Source of the DNA: Owenia fusiformis
Lineage: Eukaryota > Annelida > Polychaeta > Sabellida > Oweniidae
Direction of reading: 5' to 3'
Assembly: GCA_903813345.2 (NCBI GenBank)
Contig: CAIIXF020000004.1
Coordinates: 7,521,525 to 7,585,524, forward strand
DNA: 64,000 nt
Shown here: positions 24,855 to 64,000 of the stretch, in pieces
Layout of the letters: the number at the start of each line of letters is the position of its first letter
How positions within the stretch are numbered: the stretch's first letter is position 1
Position numbers and translations under genes: made by a program
The notes under the pieces: model-generated
What the model saw: only the letters and a program-made list of their open reading frames with translations
Told to the model about the DNA's origin: nothing
Database searches by the model: none

Positions 24855-27437
24855 TCAAACTCGCGTTGAGGGCATTTTCTCAGATTTTCTTTTTTTAGAT
24901 GTTCCTTTGTAGACTCTGCTCAAGCCGTCTTTCATTCTTGTCCAATTAACGGTCACAAACGATTTCATTTTTGTAGTTATGCTATCTTCCAACTGTTCCC
25001 CTTTGTTCTCTTCCTTTTCAAGTTGCGCCTCGAAATTCTCCCGGAACTTTTCAAACGGATCTTCACCTTTTTTCACCATGTTAATGAACATCTCCGTCTT
25101 GACTCTTAGTTGTTTTAACTGTTTAACACGTTCGTGGTAACCAGGTCTTTGTTCTGCCGACTCTGAATCGATTAGTGTATCAATGTAGTCGAGCGTTGAC
25201 ATTGGATTCGGTTTTAATGCGATTTCATTCAGGTATTCAATAGTTTGTCTCACCTTTTCTGTAAGCATCCAGACGGTTGTCTGGTGATTATCGAAGTCTT
25301 TTTTCAAATTATCGATTAAGCGCTCTTTTGTCGTCTTGCCATCTACTCCTTGTTCATAGCGTTCTAACAAATCTTTAGCTTGTTTTGTAACTTCTCGCCT
25401 GACCGTAGTCATCACAAATGGCATATTTTTGTGCGCTGTCCAGTGGCACTTATTTGGACATATTCGACAATTACCTCCTGTCATCGCCCAGCACCCCATT
25501 TTGCCACTATCATCTTTGATTGCACATCTCTCATGACATGTTCTGTTACAATTTATACAGTTTGTTGTGTATTGGCTGTGAGGGATGTCCTGTTTTACGA
25601 TCGTATCTTCGAACACAGTATATTCGAAATCCTTGTTAGCATTTATCTGAGCCTCAAAGTTGATTACGATCTTGACTTCCTCAGTAAGGGTTTCCAATTT
25701 GTTCAAGCCAAGACTGATTTCTGTGTGCATTTGCATAACATCCAGCTCCAGTTGATGTCGCTCCACTAAGACTTCTTTTGTCTGTGATAAACTTTTCCTC
25801 TCAAAACGTGATAATGCATCAAAGCATAACTTAAAACTTTTCATGCCCATTTCCCAAAACATCTTGTTGAAAGCAGCGTTATCCTCCTCCTCAGTATCAT
25901 CCGCGGAATTAGCACCATTTTCCTCCTCAATATGATATCCAATGTCGGCATAAATTGCTGAATTGTTGAACTTGAAATACTTGTTGTATTTGAATCCAGC
26001 CTCTTTGATCCCACTTAAAACAGGTGGCTTCTGGGCATCAGCAAATGTCAGAAGCATGGTGATATTATCCTCGATGTCTTTTCCAAAAAGCGAAAGTATT
26101 TTATCGAATATGTATCTTTGTGTTGGTGTTAGCCGAGGCAAAGATGACTGTGTTACAAATCCAACTGCATCGATGTGATCAATCGAATCCAACCGATTTC
26201 CTGTAAAGAATTCACGGATATGGTCTGTTATTTCTTCATCTCTCTTGTAGCCTCCAGTATCACCGAATCCCGGTGTGTCAATGATAGTTAAAGAGTATGG
26301 AACTTTGAGACCAGGTTCATGGTGAATCGTGTAAGATGTTATTGATTTTGTTTGACTGATAGCCTGATTGCTGCTTAAATTTTCTGGAATAAGTTTCAAC
26401 CGTATTGGATCTTCCCATAATATGCCGAATATATAATTGATCATTCCGTTAATCAGTGTGCTTTTCCCCGCCCCGGTAGCTCCAACAATCATTATGACCT
26501 TTTCATCGCAAGCCTTGGCCTCATTTTTAATTCCATACTCGAACTTTTTGATAAACTGATTTGCGTTTTCACATGCAAGTTTCATTTTCATTTGAAGAAT
26601 TGATGGTTTGCCTCCTTTTTCTTCGGTAGATGATTCTTTAACTTTTGCTTTGCAGATTTCCTCTGGCAATGCAACGATTTTAAACTCATCACTCACATCG
26701 CTATCTTCGCTAACACAGTTGTCTTTGTACCATGCTTGCACAGAGAATATGATTGAAACGTTTGGTTCAACAGGAATATCGGTCTTAAATTGATGTGCTG
26801 TTTGTTGGTCAGTTGTCCCTGGAATGCGCATGGTCTTCCACGTGTTGTCACTGGGGCTCTTATATTTTATGATATATGCCTCCACGATCCTCTCGTCACA
26901 TTTATCCGGCTCATTCCAAGCGATTTCAGCTCTTATTGGCGATAGTTGCGATACAATTGGTTTCCCAGGGCGAATCATGTCTCCCGTTTCATAATTTGCA
27001 GGCAAACTCTTTTCCAAGTGAAGTGCTTCATTAGCATGCTTGCATAAGTCGTCGGGCTCAGCATAGCTCTGGTCGATTGGCGTTTGCTTGAATTCACACA
27101 GTTCGCTTGGATAACTTAAGTCATCATCCGTGTAAGACGCCTGGACAGTAAAGGTGTAACTCTCGTTTTCCTCCAAATCTAATGTCATATCTGTTTGAAT
27201 TGTTTGATCTTTATTTGGTTTCACATTAATTGCCTCCACTAATTGTTTCCACACTTTCTCTCCTGCTTTCTTCCATTGTATGATGTATGACTTTACGTCG
27301 TCACTGGTATCTGATACAGCCCATGCTATGCCGATGCGATTGTTTGGTTTTTGCCATACAATCGGCGTCCCGGGCTTTGATCGATTCACTAGTTCGAATT
27401 CTCCAACAGGACATATCTCAGACGCCTCAGGGTCCAT
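24855..27437 (-). CDS. Large GTPase with two FN3-like domains and a Cys/His cluster
   Basis: This is a single-exon frame of 860 codons starting at the ATG at 27437 (MDPEASEICP). Two fibronectin type III-like domains lie at about 20-118 and 155-256, each with conserved Trp and Tyr (IAWAVSD, YIIQWKK; IAWNEPD, YIIKYKS). The GTPase domain starts near 310. It has a P-loop GATGAGKST (319-327), switch II DTPGFGD (387-393), and LLTFAD (about 462-467) where a TKxD or NKxD box would be expected. It is acidic around 504-519. Helical, probably coiled-coil, regions lie at 540-600 and 680-810. Between them, 627-670 holds at least eight Cys and several His (CINCNRTCHERC, CRICPNKCHW), likely binding zinc. 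The P-loop resembles that of AIG1/septin-like GTPases, and similar animal genes are linked to immunity, but the role here is unknown. A truncated copy lies just downstream and a frameshifted relative at the left edge. Confidence 0.88.
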   Translation of the reverse strand: MDPEASEICPVGEFELVNRSKPGTPIVWQKPNNRIGIAWAVSDTSDDVKSYIIQWKKAGEKVWKQLVEAINVKPNKDQTIQTDMTLDLEENESYTFTVQASYTDDDLSYPSELCEFKQTPIDQSYAEPDDLCKHANEALHLEKSLPANYETGDMIRPGKPIVSQLSPIRAEIAWNEPDKCDERIVEAYIIKYKSPSDNTWKTMRIPGTTDQQTAHQFKTDIPVEPNVSIIFSVQAWYKDNCVSEDSDVSDEFKIVALPEEICKAKVKESSTEEKGGKPSILQMKMKLACENANQFIKKFEYGIKNEAKACDEKVIMIVGATGAGKSTLINGMINYIFGILWEDPIRLKLIPENLSSNQAISQTKSITSYTIHHEPGLKVPYSLTIIDTPGFGDTGGYKRDEEITDHIREFFTGNRLDSIDHIDAVGFVTQSSLPRLTPTQRYIFDKILSLFGKDIEDNITMLLTFADAQKPPVLSGIKEAGFKYNKYFKFNNSAIYADIGYHIEEENGANSADDTEEEDNAAFNKMFWEMGMKSFKLCFDALSRFERKSLSQTKEVLVERHQLELDVMQMHTEISLGLNKLETLTEEVKIVINFEAQINANKDFEYTVFEDTIVKQDIPHSQYTTNCINCNRTCHERCAIKDDSGKMGCWAMTGGNCRICPNKCHWTAHKNMPFVMTTVRREVTKQAKDLLERYEQGVDGKTTKERLIDNLKKDFDNHQTTVWMLTEKVRQTIEYLNEIALKPNPMSTLDYIDTLIDSESAEQRPGYHERVKQLKQLRVKTEMFINMVKKGEDPFEKFRENFEAQLEKEENKGEQLEDSITTKMKSFVTVNWTRMKDGLSRVYKGTSKKRKSEKMPSTRV

Positions 27438-36283: not shown

Positions 36284-37536
36284 CCTGTCATTGTCGGTAA
36301 AATGCATTGCTTAACTGACAAATATAGATCAGTTATAGGTAATTGTCAGTAAAATGCATTGCTTAACTGACAAATATAGATAGGATATAGGTCATTGTCT
36401 GTAAAATGCATTGCTTAACTGACATATATAGATCAGATATAGGTCATTGTCAGTACAATGCATTGCTTAACTGACAAATATAGATCAGATATGTGTCATT
36501 GACATTAAAATGCATTGCTTAACTGACAAATATAGATCAGGTATAGGTAATTGTCAGTAAAATGCATTGCTTAACTGACAAATATAGATCAGATATGTGT
36601 CATTGACATTAAAATGCATTGCTTAACTGACAAATATAGATCAGATATAGGTAATTGTCAGTAAAATGCATTGCTTAACTGACAAATATAGATAGGATAT
36701 AGGTAATTGTCAGTAAAATGCATTGCTAAACTGACAAATATAGATAGGATATAGGTCATTGTCTGTAAAATGCATTGCTTAACTGACAAATATAGATCAG
36801 ATATAGGTCATTGTCAGTAAAATGCATTGCTTAACTGACAAATATAGATCAGAAATAGGTCATTTTCAGTTAATTGCCTTTTTAACTGACAAATATAGAT
36901 CAGGTATAGGCCATTGTCAGTAAAATGCATTGCTTAACTGACAAATATGGATTGGATATAGGTCATTGTCAGTTAAATGCATTGCTAAACTGTCAAATAT
37001 AGTTCAGGTATAGGTCATTGTCAGTAAACTGTATTGCTTACTGTCAAATATATATAAAATATAGGTCATTGTCAGTAAAATGCATTGCTAAACTGACAAA
37101 ATTAGATCAGATATAGATCATTGACATTAAAATGCATCGCTAAACTGACAAATATAGATAAGATATAGGTCATTGACATTAAAATGCATTGCTAAACTGA
37201 CAAATATAGATCAGATATGTGTCATTGACATTAAAATGCATTGCTTAACTGACAAATATAGATAAAATATCAGGATATAGGTCATTGTCTGTAAAATACA
37301 TTGCTAAACCGACAAATATAGATCGGATATAGGTCATTGTCAGTAAAATGCATTACTAAACTGACAAATATAGATAGGATATAGGTCATTGTCTGTAAAA
37401 TGCATTGCTTAACTGACAAATATAGATCAGATATAGGTCATTGTCTGTAAAATGCATTGCTAAACTGACAAATATAGATAGGATATAGGTCATTGTCATT
37501 AAAATGCATTGCTAAACTGACAAATATAGATCAGAT
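36284..37536. repeat. Tandem array, 52-bp unit, about 24 copies
   Basis: The unit is roughly TGACAAATATAGATCAGATA followed by TAGGTCATTGTCAGTAAAATGCATTGCTTAAC. The word TGCATTGC recurs at 36303, 36355 and 36407, giving a strict 52-bp period, with small changes and one short insertion near 37266. Variants GTCAGTAAAA, GTCTGTAAAA and GACATTAAAA alternate in blocks, indicating multi-unit duplications. Confidence 0.88.
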
Positions 37537-44800: not shown

Positions 44801-47800
44801 CCTCAATAAAAATCCTGAATGTGGAGAATAAATCTTAAAAAAAAATCCTGAATGTGGAGAATAAATCTTAAAAAAAATCCTGAATGTGGCTTAATATTAT
44901 TTAAATGAATAAACCTTGATAAAAAAATCCTGTGACTTTTTGACATTCTGTATTTTAGTAGTTAAGTTCTAAAGTGATAAATGATGATATCAAATTGTTT
45001 TCTCATTTTCAGCTGACAGTAAGGTGTCCATTGGAGATGTGACAGTGACAGTAAAAACTCCAAAAAATGTTGAGCTGGTCCCAACTAAATATTGTAAGTA
45101 CTGATAATGTTTCTTCTTTCATATTATGAGTACCCCTCAGGTGTTTATTTAGTACCACTCTTTTGGCTACTAATGATTTTTATTGAGCCTAGCCAAGATG
45201 TTGTTGTAATATTAATTTTGTGAAATAAAATGAAAGATAAAAAATGTGTCACTCACTGCACTAAGGTATATTATGATTAGTGCCAAGTAAGATTAAGTAG
45301 CAATAGGATGAACTTTAAGTGTCCACTCAAGTGCATGATTGGTGCCAATTGAATGTTACTGTGTATGATTAGTGCCACTCATTTATATGATAAGTACGAA
45401 TCAGATGAACTTTATGTGTCCACACATGTTCATGATTAGTGTCATTAAGTATTTGATTAGTGTCATACAAGTGTATGATTAGCACCATTCAAGGTTTGAT
45501 AAGTACATGTTCAGTGAGTATGTTATTTTTAGCACTGCTTGATTTATTAGAGTCACATAGGTGATTTAGTAGGGTCATCCAGGTTGATTATTAGTACCAC
45601 TCATTGTATTATTAGTACCACTCATTGTATTATTAGTACCACTCATTGTATCATTAGTACCACTCATTGTATCATTAGTACCACTCATTGTATTATTAGT
45701 ACCACTCATTGTATTATTAGTACCACTCATTGTATTATTAGTACCACTCATTGTATTATTAGTCTAACTCGAATATTCAAATTAATGCAAGCTACAGTAA
45801 ATACATGAACATGACCTGTTTGTATGATAAGCATATAATTTAAGTATCCTATTGTTTTTTTTATCAACAAATTCAACAGGTATTATAAAAAATACCTGCT
45901 ACATTATGATCTCACAGCTCATAGCAAGTCGCCTACAGACAGTGTTTTATAGTAACTGACCCCCTCACCCAGTCTGTAGCCAGACATTTAAGATGGATTT
46001 ATGCAGAAGGACCTGCTAATTTTAATTTTTTTTTCATTGACTCATACACTTTTAAAATGCCCAGAAAGAACCAAATAGCATCTCAAAATTGTTAAATTTT
46101 CCGGGGGGGCACCCCTCACACCCCCCCCCCACAAAACAATGGAAAAGTTCTGAATTTGCCCTGACATCATCAAATACTAGTAGCTCCTTGATATAGTAAA
46201 TGATTTTTGGAGACTAACACTTACTCGCCCTCTGGCATCCCCACCCCACCTCACTCTTTGGCACCCCCCCCCCCCCCCCCTCTTTAAACCCCCCAAATTG
46301 AAAAAAACTGTGATTTTTTCATATTTGTTGTTGAGTCATGTACTTTGAAAGTGCCTAGAAAGCACCAAATAGCATATTAAAATTGTAAAATTTTCTAGGA
46401 GAGTTGGCATTTTCTAGGAGAGTTGGAGTTCACATCCCCCACAAAACAATTGAAATAATTTTGAATTTTATGTTTTGTCTCAGAGACTTTTAAAGTTCCC
46501 AGACATAATCAAGTAGCTCCTTGATATTGTCAATGTTTCTGGGGGACTAATACTTGATCCCCCTCTGGCATCCCCACCCCACCTCCCCCTCTGGCACCCC
46601 CCCCCCCTTGACACCCCTCCAAATAATGGAAAAAATTGTGATTTTCTCAAATGTTTTACTTGACTCATACACTTTGAAAGTGTCCAGAGAGCACCAAATA
46701 ATGTCTTAAAATTGTAAAATTTCTAGGAGGAGTGGGCCACCCCTCAACCCCCCCACAAAACAATTGAAAAGTTCCTTTATTTTATATATTGTCTCACACT
46801 TTTAAAGTGCCCTGACATCATCAAACAGCTCCTTGATATAGTCAATGATTCTTGGAGACTAACACTTACTCGCCCTCTGGCATCCCCACCCCACCTCGCT
46901 CTCTGGCACCCCCCCCCCCCCCCCACTTTAACCCCCCCCCCCCAAATTGAAAAAAAATTGTGATTTTTGTCATATTTTTTTGTTGAGTCATATACTTTGA
47001 AAGTACCTAGAAAGCACCAAATAGTATATTAAAATAGTAAAATTTTCTCGGAAAGTTGCCACCCCTCACATCCCCCACAAAACAATTGAAATAATTCTGA
47101 ATTTTGTGTATTATCTCAGACACTTTTAAAGTTCCCAGACATCATAAAATGGCTCCTTGATATAGTCAATGATTTTTACTCGCCCTCTGGCATCCGCACC
47201 CAACCTCCCCCTCTGGCATCCCCCCCCCTTTGACAACCCTCAAAAATTGAGAAAAAAAATTATTTTTCAATTTTTTTATTGACTCATACACTTTAAAAGT
47301 GCTCAGATGCACCAAATATCATCATAAAATTGTAAAATTTTCTTTGACATTTGGCCATCCTTCAAATCCCCCACAAAACAACTGAAAAAATTCTGAATTT
47401 CACTTATTGTCTCAGACATTTTTAAAGTGCCCAGACATCATTAAATAGCACCTTGATATGTTTCTGGGGGACAACCACTTGGTTCACCCTCTCATCCTCT
47501 TTGACACCCCCAAAAGAATTCCCATTTTTTAGCTCATTTTTTTATTGACTCATACACTTTGAAAGTACCCAGCAAGCACTATAAATAGCATCTAAAAAGT
47601 GTAAATTTTTCTACGGGGAGTGGGCCACTCCTCATACCCCATACAAAACAATTGGACAGTTTGGACACTTAAACAGTCACCAAGTGGCATAATGAAATCA
47701 TAAAAATTTCTGGCACCCAAACCCAAAAACGAAAGCATTCATTTACTCAAACACATTAAAAGTGCTCAGAAGTTATCAGACAGCATCTTGAATTGGTAGA

Positions 47801-50800
47801 ATCTTCCTGTGCTGCCCCCTCGCTTCCCTAAGAAGAAAATGATTGAAAATTTGAATTTCTTTAAATTAATTCTACTGATTAAAACACCTTAAAGTGTCCA
47901 GAAATCACTGAATGTGATCTTGAACTGGTAAAAAGTTTCGGGTAAACATTTATGCCATTCTAGCACACCTTCCCCCTATTCCAGTGTTGCCCAAATTGCT
48001 CATTCAATATTTAGTCTAAAAACAATAAAATACTACAAAATAGGCTGAATGGCCCCAATTGAGGGAGTAACCGACCCCCCCTGACTTACGCGATCGCGCG
48101 ATGTGAATTACGCTGCAAAAATTGACAATTTCATATTCTCTAGTCTTTAGTAAAAACCACACCCCCCTTGGAGAAAAGTGTCTTACGGACCTGAAAATAT
48201 TATTTTAATCTTATTCTAGTAACTGACCCCCTCCCAAAGTCTATTGCCAGACATTTAAGATGGATTATGGAGAAAGACTTGCTAAGACAAGCTGTCTACC
48301 TAATATGGATATCTAGCCCCCTCTTGCATATTATAGGGGTTAAGGGTTTATTTATATATTAAATATTCTTTTAATCTTATTCTAGTAACTGACCCCCTCC
48401 CACAATCTATTGCCAGACATTTAAGATGGATTATGCAGAAGGACCTGCTAAGTGCTAAGACAAGCAGTGTACCTAATATGGATATCTAGCCCCCTCTTGC
48501 ATATTATAGGGGTTAAGGGTTTATTTATATATTAAATATTCTTTTAATCTTATTCTAGTAACCCACCCCCTCCCAAAGTCTATTACCAGACACTTAAGAT
48601 GGACTATGCAGAAAGACTTGCTGGGACAAGCTGTCTACCTAATATGGATATCTAGCCCCCTCTTGCATATTATAGGGGTTAAGGGTTTATTTATATATCA
48701 AATATTACTTTAATCTTATTCTAGTAACTGACCCCCTCCCACAGTCTATTGCCAGACATTTAAGATGGATTATGCAGAAAGACTTGCCAAGACAAGCTGT
48801 CTACCTAATATGGATATCTAGCCCCCTCTTGCATATTATAGGGGTTAAGGGTTTATTCATAGATTAAATATTCTTTTAATCTTATTCTTGTAACTGACCC
48901 CCTCCCACAGTTTATTGCCAGACACTTAAGATGGATTATGCAGAAGGACTTGCTGGGACAAGACGTCTACCTAATATGGATATCTAGGCCCCTTTTGCAT
49001 ACTATAGGGGTTAAGGGTTTATTTATATATTAAATATTCTTTTAATCTTATTCTAGTAACTGACCCCCTCCCACAGTCTATCGCCAGACATTTAAGATGG
49101 ATTATGCAGAAAGACTTGCTGGGACAAGACGTCTACCTAATATGGATATCTAGGCCCCTCTTGCATATTATAGGGGTTAAGGGTTTATTTATAGATTAAA
49201 TATTCTTTTAATCTTATTCTAGTAACTGACCCCCTCCCACAGTCTATTGCCAGACACTTAAGATGGATTATGCAGAAAGACTTGCCAAGACAAGCTGTCT
49301 ACCTAATATGGATATCTAGGCCCCTCTTGCATACTATAGATGTTAAGGGTTTATTTATAGATTAAATATTCTTTTAATCTTATTCTAGTAACTGACCCCC
49401 TCGCCAAGTCTGTAGCCAGACATTTAAGATGGATAATGCAGAAGGCCCTGCTAAGACAAGCCGTCTACCTAATATGGATATCTAGGCCCCTCTTGCATAC
49501 TATAGGGGTTAAGGGTTTATTTATAGATTAAATATTCTTTTAATCTTATTCTAGTAACTGACCCCCTCCCACAGTCTATTGCCAGACACTTAAGATGGAT
49601 TATGCAGAAAGACTTGCTGGGACAAGACGTCTACTTAATTGGAGCACCAGGGCCACTCAGACGGACTATAGCCATGATGTACCTGGTGAGAAAAATTACT
49701 TATTTATAAGATAATGGGAATGTCCCACCTAAGCTAATGTCCCACCTTAGATAATGTTCTATCCTTATTCATTACCAATTCTACATCTTTGATCTTAAGC
49801 ATTTCTTTTTGCATCAATTTAAATTTTCGGATAATTAAATTTAAATCAGTTAAATTTTCGTTTGTTGCTTTGAATCAATGATTTAAAAAAATTGTTCATT
49901 AAAAGTTTTTTTGAATTATATGGAGGATGGTCTTATGCAGTTATAAAATTCTAAAATTGACACAACATTTTTGCACTCAAACAAGGCTATTCATTTTTTG
50001 CATTCCTTTGCCTATTTCTGATAAAATAATCATTGATGCTCTTAAACATAGATTTTTGATTTCTGAAATAAAGATTGTAAATATAAAAATTGTTTGATAT
50101 TTCTTATTGATATTTTGTATTAGGAATTGACCAAGAGAGAGGCAGAGTATGTTTCACTGTCAAGAGATACTACAGAATCTGACCTCAAACAAAGAAGAGA
50201 AATCAAATCTGGGACAGCTTTCTATATTGACCAGGTAAACTCTCAATTTCTATCAAGATGGTAGGGGTTTCACGAGAATTTCTCACAAAGGCCAAATATA
50301 TGGAAATCATGAATTTAACATGGAAAAGTTGAAAAGTTCCCAAAAACAACAGACGATTTTATGAAATAACTGGTGAAAATCGCCTGTTGCCTGCTGCTAA
50401 TGAAACCCCTGGATGACTAGGTGCTATTGTAAATGTGAACATTGCTTACAATAATAGCAATGGGGGTCAACTGGAAACGAAGACATGATGTTTTCATTTC
50501 AGTGGCGGGATTCCCAGTTGAAGAATTTGATAAGAATTTTTGTGTTCTTGATTTTATCACCTTTATGCTTTAAAGTTTAACTTAATATTTGGGCCATATA
50601 TAGTGCCTAGGTTCCTGTGACAAAATCGAGAAAACCAAAATTATTATCAAGTTCTTCTACGTGAAGTCCAGCCTTGCTAAAACGAAGACATAATGTCTTT
50701 GTTTCCAGTTGATCCTCAGTGAATACATGTAGTCATAGTCTCAGGGTCACCTACACCTGGGCTTGGGCCCATATTATTGAACCTTAATTATTACAAAACC

Positions 50801-51700
50801 TTTAAGAACAGTTTCATGGTACAGTGATTTGTAATTTCTCCCCCTACCTAGATGTTTATTTTCAGTGTGCTGTACGAGCAGCTGTTGAAGGGAGAATACT
50901 CATTCTAGAAGGTATAGAAAAGGCTGAAAGGAATGTCCTCCCTGTATTAAACAATCTACTTGAGAATAGAGAGATGCAATTGGATGATGGCCGGTTTCTT
51001 ATGGCAGCAGATAGATATGATAAATTATTGAAGGTGGGTCTCCAAAATATTTTTAAAAGGCAATAAATGTATAAGTAACTATATAATCCAATATTAGCGT
51101 TTCAGACTCATCAGATCAGGGGATTCATTTTCTCACACGGGAAATCCTTTGAGATGTCTCATATTGGATCCTCATCCTAGTCACATGTCTGAAACCAGCC
51201 AATCAGATACATGCATTTTTCTAGGACCATGAAAAGAGTGAATTAGATGCCTGGAAACTAGTAAGAGTCAACAAAGATTTCCGTGTAATCGCACTAGGTT
51301 TACCTGTTCCTCGTTACCGTGGCAACCCACTGGACCCCCCACTGAGATCCCGTTTCCAAGCAAGAGACATTACATCACTTCCATTTAAGGTAAATTGTTA
51401 TTTTTGCTTTAGTGAAAGAACCTTTATGCAAACGGCACCATTACCTAATAGAAAGTAAGCTAGTCCAAAAGTTTGCCAATAGGGGAGACAATGGTACAAA
51501 AATTTTAAGAATGGAAAAACCATAATGTTTCCTTAAATTTCCAATTATGCTCAAATCTACATATGCTAGATTTTCATATTTAATTTTTTGAATCCCTCGT
51601 ATGCATTTAATTGTTAGACCAAATGTATTTTAGATATTTGTATGTTTTAGGACCAGATTGATGTTTTGAATGCAGTCGGACCAAGAGTTCCCTCTGAAAG
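41730..51700 (+). CDS. VWA8: VWA8, 5' seven exons (mitochondrial AAA+ ATPase with VWA domain)
   Basis: The gene is spliced from exons at 41730-41835, 45013-45093, 49555-49685, 50124-50234, 50866-51033, 51225-51389 and 51651-51700. All introns are GT-AG and the phases agree. They encode about 270 residues of the N-terminal AAA module of VWA8. The Walker A position is degenerate (IGAPGPLRRTIAMMYL), there is a Walker B-like ILILEGIEKAERN, and LDPPLRSRFQARDI carries the arginine-finger region. The Arg-rich start (RMQAERALRRVQNLRN) fits a mitochondrial presequence. The start chosen is the first in-frame ATG, directly after a stop codon; the ATG at 41748 is an alternative. The family protein is about 1,900 residues with a C-terminal VWA domain. 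The remaining exons were not found before the window ends, so the next intron exceeds 12 kb. Confidence 0.93.
41836..44445 (+). other. VWA8 intron 1, left part
   Basis: This part of the intron holds no recognisable gene. The open frames at 41861-42091 and 43343-43558 have no domain. Palindromic words ATATCACAC/GTGTGATAT cluster at 43675-43760. The poly-C tract at 42191-42201 belongs to simple sequence. Confidence 0.45.
44446..44935. repeat. Tandem array, about 49-bp unit, in VWA8 intron 1
   Basis: The unit contains AAAAATCCTGAATGTGGCTT and AATATTATTTGAATGAATAAA. CCTGAATGTGG recurs at 44521, 44570 and 44619 (49-bp period). Shortened units lie near 44820-44880. There are about ten copies, ending about 75 bp before exon 2. 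Confidence 0.82.
45013..45093 (+). CDS. VWA8: VWA8 exon 2
   Basis: The acceptor is TTTTCAG|CTGACAG and the donor TATT|GTAAGT. It encodes SDSKVSIGDVTVTVKTPKNV, then ELVPTKY. It enters and leaves in phase 1. The sequence matches the conserved start of the first VWA8 AAA module. Confidence 0.88.
45110..45770. repeat. 21-bp tandem array and decayed relatives
   Basis: From about 45584 to 45763 the unit TATTAGTACCACTCATTGTAT is repeated about nine times, with single C/T changes (ATTATTAG versus ATCATTAG). Upstream, 45120-45580 holds older, irregular versions (GATTAGTGCCA and similar). The open frame over it is only a consequence of the period being a multiple of three. Confidence 0.85.
45953..46020 (+). 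pseudogene. Isolated partial copy of VWA8 exon 3
   Basis: TAACTGACCCCCTCACCCAG followed by TCTGTAGCCAGACATTTAAG matches the first 65 bases of exon 3, preceded by a TTTATAG acceptor-like end. One inserted T breaks the frame after HLRWI. It lies more than 2 kb upstream of the main exon-copy array. Confidence 0.75.
46021..47960. repeat. Diverged tandem repeat of about 300 bp with poly-C tracts
   Basis: At least six units recur near 46055, 46350, 46680, 47010, 47290 and 47570. Each has AAGCACCAAATAGCAT-like, ACAAAACAATTGAAA-like, CAGACATCATCAAATAG-like and TCTGGCATCCCCACC-like words, plus C runs of 8 to 20 bases. The repeats decay to the right. It is intronic and carries no gene. Confidence 0.75.
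48140..49554 (+). repeat. Eight tandem 166-bp units carrying partial VWA8 exon 3
   Basis: Exon-like starts lie at 48220, 48386, 48559, 48725, 48891, 49057, 49223 and 49389, and the true exon 3 starts at 49555. All spacings are 166 except one of 173. Each unit has a TTTTAATCTTATTCTAG acceptor tract (TTCTTG in the fifth), then about 80 bases of exon 3. It then diverges at CTACCTAATATGGATATCTA, where the true exon has CTACTTAATTGGAGCACC. The second unit has a 7-base insertion that shifts its frame. Most others keep the exon frame for 45 or more codons. Only the last unit continues into the complete exon with a GTGAG donor. GGG|GTTAAG near base 120 of each unit could be a weak donor. Confidence 0.9.
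49555..49685 (+). CDS. VWA8: VWA8 exon 3 (ninth unit of the tandem array)
   Basis: The acceptor is TTATTCTAG|TAACTG and the donor CCTG|GTGAGA. It is 131 bases, phase 1 to phase 0, encoding LTDPLPQSIARHLRWIMQKD, LLGQDVYLIGAPGPLRRTIA and MMYL. This covers the degenerate Walker A position, where GAPGPLRRT has no GKT; human VWA8 is, as I recall, the same at this module. Confidence 0.92.
50124..50234 (+). CDS. VWA8: VWA8 exon 4
   Basis: The acceptor is TGTATTAG|GAATTG and the donor GACCAG|GTAAAC. It is 111 bases, phase 0 at both ends. It encodes ELTKREAEYVSLSRDTTESD, then LKQRREIKSGTAFYIDQ, a highly conserved VWA8 block. Confidence 0.93.
50866..51033 (+). CDS. VWA8: VWA8 exon 5
   Basis: The acceptor is TTTTCAG|TGTGCT and the donor TTGAAG|GTGGGT. 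It is 168 bases, phase 0 at both ends. It encodes CAVRAAVEGRILILEGIEKA (Walker B-like, with Glu where Asp is usual), then ERNVLPVLNNLLENREMQLD and DGRFLMAADRYDKLLK. Confidence 0.94.
51225..51389 (+). CDS. VWA8: VWA8 exon 6
   Basis: The acceptor is TTTTTCTAG|GACCAT and the donor TTTAAG|GTAAAT. It is 165 bases, phase 0. It encodes DHEKSELDAWKLVRVNKDFR, then VIALGLPVPRYRGNPLDPPL and RSRFQARDITSLPFK. The FRVIALGLP strand is the sensor-1 region and PPLRSRF the arginine-finger region of the AAA module. Confidence 0.94.
51651..51700 (+). CDS. VWA8: VWA8 exon 7
   Basis: The acceptor is ATGTTTTAG|GACCAG and the donor GAAAG|GTGAGT. It is 50 bases, phase 0 to phase 2, encoding DQIDVLNAVGPRVPSER. This is the last VWA8 exon I could find in the window. 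Confidence 0.88.
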
Positions 51701-51870: not shown

Positions 51871-52734
51871 TAACTGATACTTTTTAACTGATTCCTTTTC
51901 TATGCTCGACATGACTCTTTGTGCCTATCATGTTTGTTACAATGGACATGGAGAAAATTTATAAGAGATATATAAATAAAATGTATACGTGGACCAGTGG
52001 TGGTCCCAAATAAACTCTCTATGAATATTTTCATTTCCAGTTTTATTGAAATGTTGAATCGCCAGCACCTTTCAGCATAATTCAAAAGAAACAAGAAAAT
52101 GAACTTAAAATCTTTAATTAGGTATTTATTTCCACATATTTCATAAAAATGATAACAATAAGGATTCTTTTAATGGATATATTTGAACTAATTTCAATTT
52201 TCAGTACAAATTAAATATCTGTCCAGGATAAGGCAATTTTAATTAGAAAATTGTTCATGTCTATTGTCATTCAGATAATCTCAACTTTCATCATATAATG
52301 TGTCCAACTTTAAATATGAAACAATCAAATATGAAATCAATCAAAAATCGTCTTTCTCCAAAAGAAATGCATATTTGAACGCCTCTTAATAAATGAATGT
52401 ATTTCTGGTTCAAATTTTAAATCTGCATCAGACTTCCTATGTTAAGAATGTGGATTTTAGATTAAACAGGTTTTACTGTAATTGCAGATCATAACAGAAT
52501 GTTGCAACTTAAAATTTCAATCAGTATACTTGAGCACATTGTCATTTCCACGACAAATAATTACAACTGTATGGGTCAGGCCTGAAAATATCTATCAATA
52601 TAATTTGAATGACATACTAGATGATCAATATCCATTGTTCCTTATTTATTCTGTTTGTTGAGATTCATGACATGTATAGTAGTGTGATATTCTATACACA
52701 TTGTAAAATAGATTCTAACTCATAACTTGTAAAC
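51871..52734. other. VWA8 intron 7, left part
   Basis: No gene is seen. At 52468-52479 CAGGTTTTACTG is the terminal motif of the pogo-type element found complete at 55327-58334. It is present here without a partner, so it is a solo or decayed end. Confidence 0.45.
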
Positions 52735-55175
52735 ATACAATAAAACTATCATATCCAATTCCATCTCCATTCAAATAGATTCTCTCTTTCATTTTATGAC
52801 ATGTATACATACAATAAAACTATGATATCCCATTCCATCTCCATTCAAATAGATTCTCTCTTTCATTTTATAACATGTATACATACAATAAAACTATCAT
52901 ATCCAATTCCATCTCCATTCAAATAGATTCTCTGTTTCATTTTATAACATGTATACATACAATAAAACTATCATATCCAATTCCATCTCCATTCAAATAG
53001 ATTCTCTCTTTCATTTTATGACATGTATACATACAATAAAACTATGATATCCCATTCCATCTCCATTCAAATAGATTCTCTCTTTCATTTTATGACATGT
53101 ATACATACAATAAAACTATGATATCCCATTCCATCTCCATTCAAATAGATTCTCTGTTTCATTTTATAACATGTATACATACAATAAAACTATGATATCC
53201 CATTCCATCTCCATTCAAATAGATTCTCTGTTTCATTTTATAACATGTATACATACAATAAAACTATCATATCCCATTCCATCCCCATTCAAATAGATTC
53301 TCTGTTTCATTTTATAACTTGTAAACATACAATAAAACTATAAAATTCCATTCCTTCTCCATTCAAATAGATTCTCTGTTTCATTTTATAACATGTATAC
53401 ATACAATAAAACTATGATATCCCATTCCATCTCCATTCAAATAGATTCTCTGTTTCATTTTATAACATGTATACATACAATAAAACTATCATATCCCATT
53501 CCATCCCCATTCAAATAGATTCTCTGTTTCATTTTATAACTTGTAAACATACAATAAAACTATAAAATTCCATTCCTTCTCCATTCAAATAGATTCTCTG
53601 TTTCATTTTATAACATGTATACATACAATAAAACTATCATATCCCATTCCATCTCCATTCAAATAAATCCTCTCTTTCATTTTATGACATGTTTACATAC
53701 AATAAAACTATCATATCCAATTCCATCTCCATTCAAATAGATTCTCTGTTTTATTTAAAACTTGTATACATACAATAAAACTATCATATCCCATTCCATC
53801 TCCATTCAAGTAGATTCTCTCTTTTTCATTTTATAACATGTATACATACAATAAAACTATTATATCCAATTCCGTCTCCATTCAAATAGATTCTCTGTTT
53901 TATTTAAAACTTGTATACATACAATAAAACTATCATATCCCATTCCATCTCCATTCAAGTAGATTCTCTTTTTTTCATTTTATAACATGTATACATACAA
54001 TAAAACTATGATATCCCATTCCATCTCCATTCAAATAGATTCTCTGTTTCATTTTATAACATGTATACATACAATAAAACTATCATATCCCATTCCATCC
54101 CCATTCAAATAGATTCTCTGTTTCATTTTATAACTTGTAAACATACAATAAAACTATAACATTCCATTCCTTCTCCATTCAAATAGATTCTCTGTTTCAT
54201 TTTATAACATGTATACATACAATAAAACTATCATATCCCATTCCATCCCCATTCAAATAGATTCTCTGTTTCATTTTATAACTTGTAAACATACAATAAA
54301 ACTATAACATTCCATTCCTTCTCCATTCAAATAGATTCTCTGTTTCATTTTATAACATGTATACATACAATAAAACTATCATATCCCATTCCATCTCCAT
54401 TCAAATAAATCCTCTCTTTCATTTTATGACATGTATACATACAATAAAACTATCATATCCAATTCCATCTCCATTCAAATAGATTCTCTGTTTTATTTAA
54501 AACTTGTATACATACAATAAAACTATCATATCCCATTCCATCTCCATTCAAGTAGATTCTCTTTTTTTCATTTTATAACATGTATACATACAATAAAACT
54601 ATTATATCCAATTCCGTCTCCATTCAAATAGATTCTCTGTTTTATTTAAAACTTGTATACATACAATAAAACTATCATATCCCATTCCATCTCCATTCAA
54701 GTAGATTCTCTTTTTCATTTTATAACATGTATACATACAATAAAACTATTATATCAAATTCCATCTCCATTCAAATAGATTCTCTGTTTCATTTTATAAC
54801 ATGTATACATACAATAAAACTATCATATCCAATTCCATCTCCATTCAAATAGATTCTCTGTTTCATTTTATAACATGTATACATACAATAAAACTATCAT
54901 ATCCCATTCCATCTCCATTCAAATAGATCCTCTGTTTCATTTTATAATATGTACAATAAAACTATCATATCCAATTCCATCTCCATTCAAATAGATTCTC
55001 TGTTTCATTTTATAATATGTTTACATACAATAAAACTATCATATCCCATTCCATCTCCATTCAAATAGATCCTCTGTTTCATTTTATAGTATGTATACAT
55101 ACAATAAAACTATCATATCCCATTCCATCTCCATTCAAATAGACCCTATGTTTCATTTTATAATATGTATACATA
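52735..55175. repeat. 74-bp minisatellite, left block (about 33 copies)
   Basis: The unit contains CATACAATAAAACTATCATA, TCCCATTCCATCTCCATTCA and AATAGATTCTCTGTTTCATT. ATGTATACATACAATAAAAC recurs at 52801, 52875 and 52949, a strict 74-bp period. Variant units (GTAAACATAC, TTTATTTAAAACTTGT, CAAGTAGATTC, ATTCCGTCTCC) recur together. For example, the GTCTCC variant is at 53871 and again at 54613, 742 bp apart. This indicates ten-unit higher-order duplications. Confidence 0.92.
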
Positions 55176-55679
55176 CAGGGTGATCACTAAGTTCTGGGAA
55201 TTGGTCTGTCATTTCAATATTTTTCAACCAATTCAGTTGAAACTTCCAGCAAATGTACATTGTATAATTCTGAATTGACAGACAATGTTTCATATACATA
55301 TCACTTTTACAATTTATTTTATTGTACAGTAAAACCTGCGAACAGGGAATGCTCTTCGGACTGGAGGAAAGTTTCCTTGTTCAGAGGTTTTCCCTACAGA
55401 GAGGGGCCGCAATTTCAGCAAACTCAGAATTGCCAAATAAGCAATTTTTGTATATATTTGAGCATTTATTAATTTTACCAATGCTGACTCCATACTTGGT
55501 TGCTAGACCTTGTTGTGACATCTTGGAAGATGAATGAAGGTCTCCCACCTCCCTCCTTTAGCTGAGGGTAAGGAGCATTCTCCCGATGTTGATTTTAGCC
55601 CCTGCTGCTGACGTATGATGATGTCTAGTTGTAGAAAGATGATATAATGTTGCCAAACGTTCAAATGAACCTCATCATT

Positions 55680-57815
55680 GGCATAAATACAAGTCACTAC
55701 GGAAATTAATCCATAGTGAAATTCGTAAAGAACATCAGCGCTACATCAACGATCTGCTTGACATTGATGAAAGCGAAATCATAAATGAGAATGTTCAGCA
55801 CAAAGGCATTACCAAACGCTTCTGGAGCTACATAAAGTCTAAACGCAAAGATGCATCAGGTATCAGCATGCTGCGTAACAAAGATGGCGACGAAATAACA
55901 GACGCCGCCCAGAAAGCAAACATCCTCAATGACCAATACAATTCTGTATTCACAGATGAGGATGCCACTCTACCGACAATGGTACCTAGTCAAATTCCTG
56001 AAATGCCAAATATCAAAATTTCGACAAAAGGAATTCACAAATTGCTAACTGGCCTAAATCCATCAAAAGCCACTGGACCTGATCTTATTCCGACTAGGGT
56101 CCTGAAGGAATGCAGTGACAGCATATCACCATTCCTTCAAATAATTTTTCAACAGTCTATCGATGAAGGCTTAGTGCCTATGGACTGGAAACATGCCAAT
56201 GTTACTGCTATCTACAAAAAGGGACGAAGAGATGAGGCTGTGAATTACAGGCCTGTATCTCTGACGTCAGTTCCATGTAAAATAATGGAACATATTATAT
56301 TCCATCATGTTATGGCCCACTTTGACCTCTATGAAATTCTAGTAAAATTCCAACATGGATTCAGGTCAAAGCACTCATGTGAAACACAACTTGTCAATAC
56401 AATAGAGAATATAGCTCGGGCCCTAAACAACAATAAACAAACAGACATGTTGGTATTAGACTTTTCCAAAGCGTTTGACACGGTGGCTCACGAACGCCTC
56501 TTGCTCAAACTCGACTATTATGGAATTCGCAATAATAACTTGAACTGGTTCAGATCCTGGCTTTTGGGAAGATCACAACAGGTAGTGCTCGATGGTGAAT
56601 CAAGTTCAAAAACTCCAGTAAAATCAGGAGTTCCTCAAGGAACAGTTCTTGGACCACTCTGTTTCCTTGTTTATATCAATGATATGGGCAATAACCTATC
56701 ATCCTCAGCCAGTCTTAAGCTTTTTGCCGACGACAGCCTTTTATTCATGACAGTCGAAAGCAAGCAAGATGCATTAACACTACAGGAGACTCTTGATAAA
56801 CTGGTCTCCTGGGCATCAACATGGCAAATGAAATTCCATCTATCAAAATGCTATGTGCTAAATATTCACAAAGGTAAATCTCCTATCATGCACAATTACA
56901 CCATGCTAGGGGAAAACCTTAAGTCGGTAACACACATCCCATACCTAGGAATTGACATCACAAATAACTTACGCTGGACTACACATATTCAAACTATTGT
57001 ATCCAAAGCCAATAAGGTGCTCGGATTTCTCAGGCGCAACCTCAATCAATGCCTTGAAAAAGTGAAGGCTCAGGCGTATAAGTCACTAGTCCGGCCTAAT
57101 TTAGAGTATGCCAGCTCGGCATGGGATCCATACCGACAAAAAGATATTGATATGTTGGAACAGGTACAGAGAAGAGCAGCCAGGTTTGTAACCAAATGTC
57201 ACTCAAGGGAACCAGGCTGCGTCACCAAAGCTCTTCAAGACCAACAGTGGGAGCCACTGAAGGAGCGTCGAGAGGCTGCTAGAGTTTTCCTTTTCTACAA
57301 AGGAAAGCAGAACCTAGCAGCCATCGACGTGCCTCCATACTTCCGCCAACAGATCAATACCAACACTAGGTTGTATCATCCTTCTAAGTACATACAACCA
57401 TCAACTAGAACGGATGCATACAAATTTAGCTATTTCCCTAGGACAATAGCTAAATGGAACACTCTACCTGGTGACATCTTAGACTGTGACAGTCTAAGTA
57501 GTTTTAAATCATCATACTATGCCTATGTCAATAACTGCAATTAAATAGGTGTGTTTTTAATTTAGATCTATGTTTTAATGTAAAGGGTCCCCAGTGCACA
57601 GCAACAAGCCTGCACTACTGGTAAAGAGGGGTGATGTCAACGCGGTAGCCTGACAGTCTCCCCAGGTAAAATGAGTTGTAAACCATAGATCTATTTTTAA
57701 ATGTTAAGGTTTTAAATTATATTCTATTCAAATTCTATCACTGTTAAATTATATATCTGCTTTATATGGGCTTATTAGCCTTTTGCAGATTATTGACATA
57801 GACATAGACATAGAA
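55680..57815 (+). mobile_element. 5'-truncated CR1/L2-like LINE
   Basis: Reverse transcriptase coding sequence begins abruptly near 55680 without a start. It ends at 57544, and a 3' tail of about 270 bp finishes in GACATAGACATAGACATAGA near 57795. Such a short tandem tail is typical of CR1/L2-type elements. It lies within the pogo-like element. Confidence 0.8.
55686..57544 (+). CDS. CR1/L2-like LINE reverse transcriptase, 5'-truncated, open frame
   Basis: The frame is open from the truncation near 55686 (KYKSLRKLIHSEIRKEHQRY) to the stop at 57542-57544. The first ATG, at 55868, gives 558 codons and is probably not the native start. Motifs in order are GPDLIPTRVLK, NYRPVSLTSVPCKIME, HGFRSKHSCETQL, VLDFSKAFDTVAH, SGVPQGTVLGPLCFLVYIND, the catalytic FADD (LKLFADDSLLF), YLGIDI, and RPNLEYASSAWDPY in the C-terminal part. 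The end FPRTIAKWNTLP is the typical C-terminus of this group. The endonuclease domain is missing. The lack of stops or frameshifts across 1.8 kb suggests a young copy. If translated it would give polymerase without the endonuclease that these elements need to insert. Confidence 0.92.
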
Positions 57816-58399
57816 ATTATTGATACATTTGGCTCAACATGACACATGTACTTATCTGTTATCTCCATAAAACAATTGTGTCAATCTCTAGATTATCACA
57901 ACTGATGTAATTAGGTTTGTCGAAGGGAAGAATTAGTGTCATGATAATTAGTAACAATCAGATTAGTATTAGTTTTAAAATATATCAGGGTAATTAACAG
58001 TGGGTGGGATGCTTCATCGTGTAAACAATTGGCTTATCTTAATCTCAATCATATTAATCCAAGCTTTTTAGAATCAGATATAGGCTTAAGACTTTCACAC
58101 CTCTGAAAAATAATGGAATATACAGTGTCACCAATATTCCATATTTCTTGTTCACAGGTGAATTTTCATAATTTGCCCCAAAATAGTGTTCCTTGTTCCC
58201 TGTTCACAGGTTTTCCCTACAGAGAGGGTCCGTTAACATGTAAGTCAATGGAAAAATATTTGGTTCTTTTGAAAAGCATTCCTTGTTCATAGGTTTTCCC
58301 TACAGAGAGGTATTCCATCGGACAGGTTTTACTGTAATTATAAAAAAAGCAAAAGTGATCAGCGGGTCAGCAAATTTTGACTGATGTTAATTTGAAAAT

Positions 58400-58925
58400 A
58401 TCCTGCTAAAACATATTCATCTTCCCTAGATGGTTGGTTCAAACTTATGGTACAAGAGGCAGAACAGTACTCTTAGAGTCATTTATTCAGAAGTATTCTT
58501 CATTGCTGGAAGGATCATTTCATTTATAATGATTTCCATAGGCCTGGACGCCCATGCATTGTTGTCAAACCTAGTCCATAAAGTTTCTTTCCAGTCCTCC
58601 CTTTGGTATCCCTTGAAAATATGCTCAAGCTGTTGAGATCAGTCCCTCGTTGGAACCTAACTTATGATGATCTCTCATATGATGCTTCAACAGTCAAATT
58701 TAGTGAATCTAATGGTGGTTCATTTGGTGAACATTATATGGTGAATATGGGGCATGAACAACTTGTTTGAACCCTAATTCTTTAAGACTAGTATGGGCAC
58801 TTTGGGAATGGAAAGAGGCATAGTCATAATGGAAGATAACTCCCCGCTATTTTGAGTCATGATTGTGACTTTGAGAGTCTGACCAATGATAAGAAAATTG
58901 AGCAAAGTGGACTCTGTATATCACA
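58400..58925 (-). pseudogene. Decayed mariner-type transposase fragment
   Basis: On the minus strand, the part around 58745-58830 reads HTSLKELGFKQVVHAPYSP. It matches the mariner-family signature in which the catalytic DNA-x-H segment is followed by L-x3-GF and HxPYSPDLAP. Frames before and after are broken by stops and shifts. A later piece near 58560-58630 reads RKLYGLGLTTMHG-like in one frame. It is therefore an inactivated remnant belonging to the surrounding mariner-type element. Confidence 0.6.
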
Positions 58926-59257
58926 ATAAAGATGTTACTTTAGAAACTAAAGTTAGAAATATTTGAAAATATAAAAAATCACAGAAATTTGTCTACTAAA
59001 TAGGTATTAATTAACCATACTTTTGGATCAAGTAAAATAAAAATGAATTCAAGTTTTGCTTGACCCGCTACGCCATTTGTCATGTTGCTATAGTAACAAT
59101 AATTATCCATTGTGACATCATATGACAATGAAACTGTTTAATCCAACCCAAAACTATATTCTCCATTTACCTTGAAAATTTCAAGTAGATTGGTTGAAAA
59201 ATAATGAAATGACAGATAAATTCCCAGATAAATTCCCAGAACTTAGTGATCACCCTG

Positions 59258-61455
59258 TACAATAAAACTATCATATCCCATTATATCGCCATTCAAATAG
59301 ATTCTCTGTTTCATTTTATAACATGTATACATACAATAAAACTATCATAATGAAGTCTATCTCCATTCAAATAGATCCCCTCTTTCATTTTATAACTTGT
59401 ATACATACAATAAAACTATCATATCCCATTCCATCCCCATTCAAATAGATTCTCTGTTTCATTTTATAACATGTATACATACAATAAAACTATCATATCC
59501 AATTCCATCTCCATTCAAATAGATCCTCTCTTTCATTTTATGACATGTTTACATACAATAAAACTATCATATCCAATTCCATCTCCATTCAAATAGATTC
59601 TCTCTTTCATTTTATAACATGTATACATACAATAAAACTATCATATCCAATTCCATCTCCATTCAAATAGATCCTCTCTTTCATTTTATGACATGTTTAC
59701 ATACAATAAAACTATCATATCCAATTCCATCTCCATTCAAATAGATCCTCTCTTTCATTTTATGACATGTTTACATACAATAAAACTATCATATCCAATT
59801 CCATCTCCATTCAAATAGATCCTCTCTTTCATTTTATGACATGTTTACATACAATAAAACTATCATATCCAATTCCATCTCCATTCAAATAGATTCTCTG
59901 TTTCATTTTATAACATGTATACATACAATAAAACTATCATATCCAATTCCATCTCCATTCAAATAGATCCTCTCTTTCATTTTATGACATGTTTACATAC
60001 AATAAAACTATCATATCCAATTCCATCTCCATTCAAATAGATTCTCTCTTTCATTTTATAACATGTATACATACAATAAAACTATCATATCCAAGTCCAT
60101 CTCCATTCAAATAGATTCTCTCTTTCATTTTATAACTTGTGTAGATATAATAAAACTATCATATCACATTCCATCTCAATTCAAATAGATTCTGTATTTC
60201 AAATGATAACATGTATACATACAATAAAACTATCATATCCCATTCCATCTACATTCAAATAAATCCTCTCTTTCATTTTATAACATCTATACATACAATA
60301 AAACTATCATATCCCATTCCATCTCCATTCAAATAGATCCTCTGTTTCACTTTATAACATGTATACATACAATAAAACTATCATATACAATTCCATCTCC
60401 ATTCAAATAGATTCTCTGTTTCATTTTATAACATGTATACATACAATAAAACTATGATATCCCATTCCATCTCCATTCAAATAGATTCTCTGTTTCATTT
60501 TATAACATCTATACATACAATAAAACTATCATATCCCATTCCATCTCCATTCAAATAGATCCTCTGTTTGATTTTATAACATGTATACATACAATAAAAC
60601 TATCATATCCAATTCCATCTCCATTCAAATAGATCCTCTGTTTCATTTTATAACATGTATACATACAATAAAACTATCATATCCCATTCCAACTCCATTC
60701 AAAAAGATCCTGTTTCATTTTTTAACATGTATACATACAATAAAACTATCATATCCCATTCCAACTCCATTCAAAAAGATCCTGTTTCATTTTATAACAT
60801 GTATACATACAATAAAACTATCATATCCCATTCCAACTCCATTCAAATAGATCCTCTGTTTCATTTTTTAACATGTATACATACAATAAAACTATCATAT
60901 CCCATTCCAACTCCATTCAAAAAGATCCTGTGTCATTTTATAACATGTATACATACAATAAAACTATCATATCCCATTCCAACTCCATTCAAATAGATCC
61001 TCTGTTTCATTTCTTAACATGTATACATACAATAAAACTATCATATCCCATTCCAACTCCATTCAAAAAGATCCTGTTTCATTTTATAACATGTATACAT
61101 AGAATAAAATTATCATATCCAATTCCATCTCCATTCAAATAGATTCTCTCTTCCATTTTATAACTTGTGTACATACAATAAAACTATCATATCCAATTCC
61201 ATGTCCATTCAAATAGATCCTCTATTTCATTTTATAACATGTATACATACAATAAAACTATCATATCCAATTCCATCTCCATTCAAATAGATTCTCTCTT
61301 CCATTTTATAACTTGTGTACATACAATAAAACTATCATATCCAATTCCATGTCCATTCAAATAGATCCTCTGTTTCATTTTATAACATGTATACATACAA
61401 TAAAACTATCATATCCCATTCCATCTCCATTCAAATAGATTTTCTGTTTCAGTTT
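59258..61455. repeat. 74-bp minisatellite, right block (about 29 copies)
   Basis: This is the same unit as 52735-55175, continuing in register after the mariner-type insertion. Units near 60670-61080 carry CCAACTCCATTCAAAAAGAT and lose two bases. This gives a local subfamily and a long but meaningless open frame (YNKTIISHSNSIQ repeats). Confidence 0.92.
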
Positions 61456-63564: not shown

Positions 63565-64000
63565 CTAAGTGTCAGGTCTTTGCGCTAGCAATGCTCCCAA
63601 TGTTATTACACCTATTGCTCCAACTCCAAATGAGAGTATGCTCTTAATGTCTGGAACTGTATGCCGACCATCTGTATCATCAATCCCATAATGCTGTAAC
63701 AGTCCATCCCAACCTTCATTTTTATTCATCCACTCTGCTAAATTTTTGTTTATGTACTTCGATGTCCATTCACGGATTTCGTCTACAAGTTTTGGTAGAC
63801 CTAGTTCAACACACTTTACAGCAAATGATCCTGAAAATGCAACCAATGCTACAACCCTTCCCCATTTAACTCCATCTTGGAAAAGCTCGTCCGCGATCGC
63901 TGTGAATGTGCTATGGCTTGTCGATGGAGTAACATGAAGTTGGTTTGTCATCTCTTCGAAAACTTCCCCGTATCTTTCCTGAAATTTATCGCCCAATTTT
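63565..64000 (-). CDS. Bcl-2 family apoptosis regulator, 3' part
   Basis: The frame enters from the right edge (KLGDKFQERYGEVFEEM) and stops at 63565, giving 144 visible residues. The TTG at 63996 is not a start; the 5' part lies outside. LGDKFQERY corresponds to the end of the BH3 helix. ELFQDGVKWGRVVALVAFSG is BH1, with KWGR in place of the common NWGR. EGWDGLLQHYG is BH2. ILSFGVGAIGVITLGALLA is a C-terminal membrane anchor, followed by QRPDT. The presence of BH1, BH2 and an anchor suits a multidomain protein on the mitochondrial or ER membrane. A pro-survival role is likelier than a Bax-like one from the BH1 pattern, but this is inference. The coding sequence has no intron in the visible part. 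Confidence 0.9.
   Translation of the reverse strand, partial: KLGDKFQERYGEVFEEMTNQLHVTPSTSHSTFTAIADELFQDGVKWGRVVALVAFSGSFAVKCVELGLPKLVDEIREWTSKYINKNLAEWMNKNEGWDGLLQHYGIDDTDGRHTVPDIKSILSFGVGAIGVITLGALLAQRPDT

Follow-up and report, generated by a model that had tools for sequence, protein, structure and literature searches.

Intronic minisatellites and satellites have a fixed period and carry mosaic variants of the kind left by exchange. Tandem exon duplication is a described class, to which unannotated intronic copies with some support in RNA also belong (Ivanov and Pervouchine 2022, PMC9013439). A survey of human mutually exclusive exons lists three means of exclusion, among them a short donor-branch distance and frame incompatibility; frames are incompatible in 60% of clusters, and the donor-branch distance is below 50 bp in 9% (PMC5740500); both papers are cited here from parts of their text. 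We compared these systems with a locus of the annelid Owenia fusiformis, located in a window of 64,000 nt (assembly GCA_903813345.2, contig CAIIXF020000004.1, positions 7,521,525 to 7,585,524), in which eight tandem copies precede exon 3 of a gene that is presumably VWA8.

The array shares a fixed period and mosaic variants with intronic minisatellites and satellites: tandem repeats finder (TRF) detects head-to-tail copies of fixed period, and failures of the four-gamete test indicate exchange. It differs from them in having as its unit an exon with an acceptor and a candidate donor, and in ending with the working exon. As in the duplications outlined in the excerpts of PMC9013439, copies of a coding exon lie beside that exon in the same gene; they are homologous, adjacent and on the same strand, and by its sequence the array belongs to the tandem exon duplications. 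Unlike what those excerpts describe, it comprises eight copies with a nearly fixed 166-bp period and 47-nt gaps, in the manner of a satellite, and strong similarity covers only about two thirds of the true exon. With mutually exclusive clusters of the Dscam type it has in common equal phases, a frame broken by joint inclusion and a short gap between donor and acceptor; in contrast to the clusters in the portion of PMC5740500 used here, the copies have weak donors, are nearly alike rather than diversified and are known from sequence alone. The phase, similar length and open frame of mutually exclusive exons are found in seven of the eight copies (119 versus 131 nt) and are absent from copy 2. 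The unusual traits of the array are its satellite-like regularity and the apparent signs of exchange with a working exon. Among the literature matches listed (titles and beginnings of abstracts), there was neither a VWA8 exon 3 array nor an exon-derived intronic satellite like this one, and those combining VWA8 with "mutually exclusive exon" were tumour transcriptome studies.

Host gene and anatomy of the array

The name VWA8 is putative and follows the initial annotation, and the part studied contains the first exons only (Table 1). The reading frame of exon 2 runs on into exon 3. Exon 3 alone gave no Pfam match, and the AAA_5 match of exon 6 (51225-51386, E 2.9e-4, 21.3 bits) falls just under the cut-off of 22; the spread of the AAA_5 domain across consecutive exons, strong in exon 5 and weak in exon 6, is as expected for VWA8. 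A sequence search of PDB with exon 3 alone found no match, and with exons 3-6 it found four distinct Midasin sequences (E about 2.5e-6), the best stretch being peptide residues 82-133, within the part encoded by exon 5. The end of exon 3 encodes a P-loop-like GAPGPLRR that is without the usual lysine; two weak Midasin stretches (-4.1 and 6.1 bits) set LIGAPGPLRR against the Walker A motif, a placement made by motif and not by score. The exon bases coding for this segment and the true exon 3 donor lie in a predicted hairpin (CACCAGG/CCUGGUG, 49636-49697, folded without a shuffle control), which was not seen in the four copies folded (1, 3, 6 and 8). Searches with the exon 3-6 peptide returned 27 candidate stretches in microbial genome contigs and one in viral contigs, none of them confirmed and with no bearing on animals, and a degenerate pattern had no match in the viral contigs, a collection of viruses without bearing on animal relatives.

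Table 1 Exons of the host gene, units of the array and the isolated upstream copy (positions in the window)
Feature	Position	Strand	Description
VWA8 exon 2	45013..45093	+	81 nt; donor ATT|GTAAGT; leaves one codon base; open AG..GT segment
Tenth copy of the exon 3 start	45947..46019	+	truncated, frameshifted, with acceptor AG; 87-88% identity over 71-73 bases
Tandem array	48195..49685	+	eight units (166, 173, then six times 166 bp) and true exon 3; TRF, alignments
Exon copy 1	48220..48338	+	119 nt, open, phases as exon 3
Exon copy 2	48386..48511	+	126 nt, 7-base insertion, in-frame stop
Exon copy 3	48559..48677	+	119 nt, open
Exon copy 4	48725..48843	+	119 nt, open
Exon copy 5	48891..49009	+	119 nt, open, acceptor TTG
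Exon copy 6	49057..49175	+	119 nt, open; 3 differences from the true exon in the first 83 bases
Exon copy 7	49223..49341	+	119 nt, open; donor GAT|GTTAAG
Exon copy 8	49389..49507	+	119 nt, open; most diverged, 14 differences in 83
True VWA8 exon 3	49555..49685	+	131 nt; donor CTG|GTGAGA; ninth unit of the array
VWA8 exon 4	50124..50234	+	donor CAG|GTAAAC
VWA8 exon 5	50866..51033	+	Pfam AAA_5, E 8.9e-13
VWA8 exon 6	51225..51389	+	donor AAG|GTAAAT; Pfam AAA_5 weak

The array is beyond chance expectation, since TRF reports it with a score of 2371 (48195-49643, period 166, 8.7 copies, 91% matches) and a 16-base core occurs 11 times in the window at up to three mismatches, against 0.18 expected. 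The nine tandem units described in the initial annotation, the last of them the true exon, were recovered at the starts listed in Table 1, with seven of the eight spacings at exactly 166 bp; the beginning had been set at 48140, 55 bases too early, as homology begins at 48195. The 3' limit is not sharp, and homology may extend into intron 3 to about 49712, where a match of the intron tail ends.

The description of the splice signals was likewise confirmed. The acceptor AG is retained in seven of the eight copies, copy 5 having TTG instead of TAG, and seven retain a length that preserves the frame and have no stop, the exception being copy 2, in which the insertion destroys the frame. GTTAAG stands at +119, or at +126 in the case of copy 2, and follows GGG in every copy except copy 7, so that a donor GT is found in all eight; acceptor AG, donor GT and frame are intact together in six (copies 1, 3, 4, 6, 7 and 8). 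The lengths of 119 and 131 nt are both 2 mod 3, which gives the copies the phases of the true exon, and two such exons included jointly shift the frame. Between neighbouring copies, the donor lies 47 nt from the next acceptor.

Farther upstream in intron 2 lies a tenth partial copy (Table 1), absent from the initial annotation, which has one extra T and diverges after the matched stretch; judged by eye, it has variants in common with copy 8. This copy thus suggests that exon 3 sequence was copied upstream more than once, or that a piece broke off an earlier array. Intron 2 also holds about 3.3 copies of a 296-bp repeat (46430-47459), starting some 400 bases past the tenth copy, and a stretch at 48066-48081, AGTAACCGACCCCCCC, has two mismatches to the exon 3 start with acceptor AG and is possibly a further decayed relic.

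Several other features were observed in the window. A stretch of about 4.1 kb (55174-59259) has inverted ends (35 nt at 94% and 56 nt at 86% complementarity), contains a reverse-transcriptase ORF (55868-57544) and is flanked by 74-bp repeat arrays (52722-55177 and 59258-61455), by eye of the same repeat, as if one array had been split. A 52-bp tandem repeat occupies 36287-37536 (23.9 copies). On the minus strand are a single-exon ORF of 860 aa with fn3 and a septin/AIG1-like GTPase domain (24855-27437) and, opposite in strand to VWA8, a Bcl-2 family ORF (63565-63996, E 2.5e-30). The reverse-transcriptase, fn3/GTPase and Bcl-2 domains of these ORFs point to animal DNA. Scans of the window for tRNA and Rfam families found none.

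Homology of the copies to exon 3

From 25 bases before the acceptor through exon base 83, the copies differ from the true exon at 3-14 of 108 positions, with 3-14 differences also in the first 83 exon bases. The earlier figure of about 80 exon bases per copy holds for the nearly identical part, which measures 82-83 bases, but leaves out the next 36, which are also exon-like in register. Without gaps, 18-20 of these 36 bases match the true exon in all eight copies, and in each the match peaks at offset 0 (best of 25 offsets, the others giving at most 15). The consensus value of 19/36 was equalled by 8 of 20,000 shuffles and at 12 of 62,395 window positions, in tests that were framed after the match had been noticed. 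The 12 residues of this part have BLOSUM62 scores of 10-16, the best of which (copy 8) was reached by 29 of 20,000 shuffles.

Other comparisons of the 3' part gave null results. In blastn, the copies had no match to the last third of the true exon past the ~82 nearly identical bases. Gapped global alignment of the 3' part was not significant (335 and 319 of 5000 shuffles and 118 of 8904 window positions as good), and neither was local alignment of the 36 bases for copy 8 (274 and 231 of 2000 shuffles, 90 of 2006 windows) or copy 1 (1806 and 1619 of 2000 shuffles, 1424 of 2006 windows). For the intron tail, TTATTTATAGAT, compared with 49700-49712, 151 and 54 of 2000 shuffles and 17 of 2007 windows were as good as copy 8, and 581 and 174 of 2000 shuffles and 82 of 2007 windows were as good as copy 1; the 36 bases and the tail combined were not significant for copy 8 (576 and 420 of 2000 shuffles, 201 of 2005 windows). 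Duplication of a whole exon with both splice sites is supported by the in-register match and not by the gapped and local alignments, and an origin of the copies from whole exons appears likely.

Variation and probable exchange among the copies

In pairwise comparisons of the eight copies, with the insertion of copy 2 left out, 6-20 of 166 sites differ. Variable sites make up 28/119 in the exon versus 6/47 in the spacer (p 0.14), and the most variable part is the first 83 exon bases (23/83 versus 11/83 elsewhere, p 0.03). The exon changes comprise 15 synonymous and 15 non-synonymous ones where 27% synonymous are expected (p about 0.007 at kappa 4, and 0.0008-0.014 across kappa 1-8); these counts treat related copies as independent, which makes the p-values optimistic. 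The excess exists only in the VWA8 frame, the wrong frames giving p 0.45 and 0.92. It amounts to 10/19 among changes private to one copy (p 0.017), 5/11 among shared changes (p 0.16), 12/24 with copy 8 left out (p 0.015) and 11/25 in the six usable copies alone (p 0.055), and the 36-base 3' end, with two synonymous and three other changes, is uninformative. Random substitution across exon and spacer alike, one of the signs by which the initial annotation would have recognized an inert satellite, is thus found only in part: the exon varies no less than the spacer, but its changes are rich in synonymous ones in the VWA8 frame.

The four-gamete test is failed by 15 of 36 pairs of informative sites over the nine units and by 40 of 66 over the eight copies. 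Only 4 and 3 of 108 positions separate copies 5 and 6 from the true exon, yet both end like the other copies, that is, they present the GQD version of the true exon on the common copy 3' end. Together, the four-gamete failures among the copies and the composition of copies 5 and 6 point to exchange. The copies may be under coding constraint now or formerly, or their variants may have come from the coding exon by exchange; the excess among private changes leans against exchange with the coding exon as the sole source. Selection on the copies was considered and not adopted as the best reading: the synonymous excess is no stronger in the six usable copies than in all eight.

Splice signals and alternative explanations

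Donors were scored with a table of human data, not trained on this species, in which the GTTAAG donors reach -2.7 in seven copies and -5.7 in copy 7, all exceeded by the true donors of exons 2-6 (1.2, 5.6, 3.7, 6.7 and 3.2). Among 345 intronic GTs, 22% reach the copy donor score and 0.3% that of the exon 3 donor. When a bulge is allowed, pairing with U1 amounts to -5.9 kcal/mol in seven copies and -3.5 in copy 7, compared with -6.8, -8.1, -8.6, -9.9 and -6.8 kcal/mol in exons 2-6; 7% of intronic GTs pair as well as the seven copy donors, which come near exons 2 and 6. As donors of mutually exclusive exons, the copies would combine a low score, by this human table, with moderate bulged U1 pairing. 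Docking sites for mutually exclusive splicing were sought between one 47-nt spacer and three flanks (45094-45946, 47460-48194 and 49686-50123, leaving out the repeat-rich 45947-47459) and rejected, with 6, 1 and 57 of 60 shuffles as good. Since the ninth exon has the better donor, the copies are probably mostly skipped in splicing. Competition among them, as proposed in the initial annotation, is possible in so far as six keep AG, GT and frame, but it is disfavoured by the weak donor scores and the 47-nt gaps.

We consider it fairly probable, with some reserve, that the locus is an exon-seeded tandem array that exchanges sequence with the true exon and is largely skipped in splicing. The anatomy described initially is supported, and so is seeding by an exon, one of the options raised there. 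The array at the end of VWA8 intron 2 would have been seeded by exon 3 itself, through duplication of a segment that took in the exon with its donor, plus 25 bases of intron 2 (the tract and acceptor) on one side and about 20 bases of intron 3 on the other. The final third of the duplicated exon would have diverged and become 12 bases shorter, with GGG|GTTAAG as the donor, and unequal exchange would then have multiplied this copy to eight units of about 166 bp; this order of events is what we infer. The first ~82 exon bases would still be exchanged with the true exon and the diverged ends not, and exon definition would prefer the ninth exon with its better donor, leaving the copies mostly skipped in RNA.

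A composite seed is unlikely: here only the first ~82 bases would come from exon 3, and the following 58 bases of the unit, unrelated to it, would have been joined before amplification, the array being inert. Such a seed agrees with the lack of significance of the 3' part in gapped global and in local alignment; the in-register peak at offset 0 in all eight copies speaks against it, and the 58 bases were not found directly upstream of the array, where scores as high were reached in 1189 of 2005 control windows. Misassembly is common in tandem arrays and could have inflated or collapsed the copy number here too, but the pairwise differences are unlike the repeated joining of one unit, and we regard an artefact as very improbable. 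In exon definition, acceptors without a good donor tend to go ignored. This general tendency weakens the case for decoy or poison exons, in which copy acceptors would sometimes capture the spliceosome and lower VWA8 through frame-shifted double inclusions or retained spacer. The AG in seven copies, a tract almost as in the true acceptor (alike over 25 bases) and the frame shift of joint inclusion would suit decoys, but a homogenised array is expected to retain its acceptors anyway, and the chance of this reading is slim.

We think it quite unlikely that the copies act as mutually exclusive or alternative exons, with exon 2 joined to one of copies 1, 3, 4, 6, 7 and 8 and then to exon 4. The product of such splicing, improbable in the same measure, would be a VWA8 four residues shorter, in which GAPGPLRRTIAMMYL is replaced by WIS(R/S)PLLH(I/T)I(G/D). 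In favour of it, the phases match, seven copies are without a stop, six retain AG, GT and frame, double inclusion would be hindered by the 47-nt gap and the frameshift, and the synonymous excess is confined to the true frame and extends to private changes; frame incompatibility and short donor-branch distance are known in human mutually exclusive exons, according to the part of the survey cited above (PMC5740500). On the other hand, the donors are weak, exon sites vary no less than the spacer, the six usable copies show no stronger synonymous excess, no clear docking pairing was found and open frames are cheap, the probability of no stop in 30 random changes being 0.19. It is decidedly doubtful that the six intact copies serve as genuine, regulated alternative exons by which VWA8 swaps the P-loop segment of its first AAA+ domain. 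On that similarly doubtful view, a mitochondrial ATPase would contain a mutually exclusive cluster whose members stay alike through exchange with the constitutive exon and use a bulged U1 pairing at GTTAAGG.

The locus offers a natural test of competition, in which eight copies, seven of them with nearly the same acceptor, stand ahead of a single true exon, the main differences lying in the final 48 bases of that exon and in its donor. Whether the ninth exon wins, and for what reason, would show how far donor strength governs the choice of an exon. The array also suggests how a coding exon can turn into the unit of a satellite, and the satellite may in turn return variants to the coding exon, which would be a route to clusters of alternative exons or to damage of the exon.
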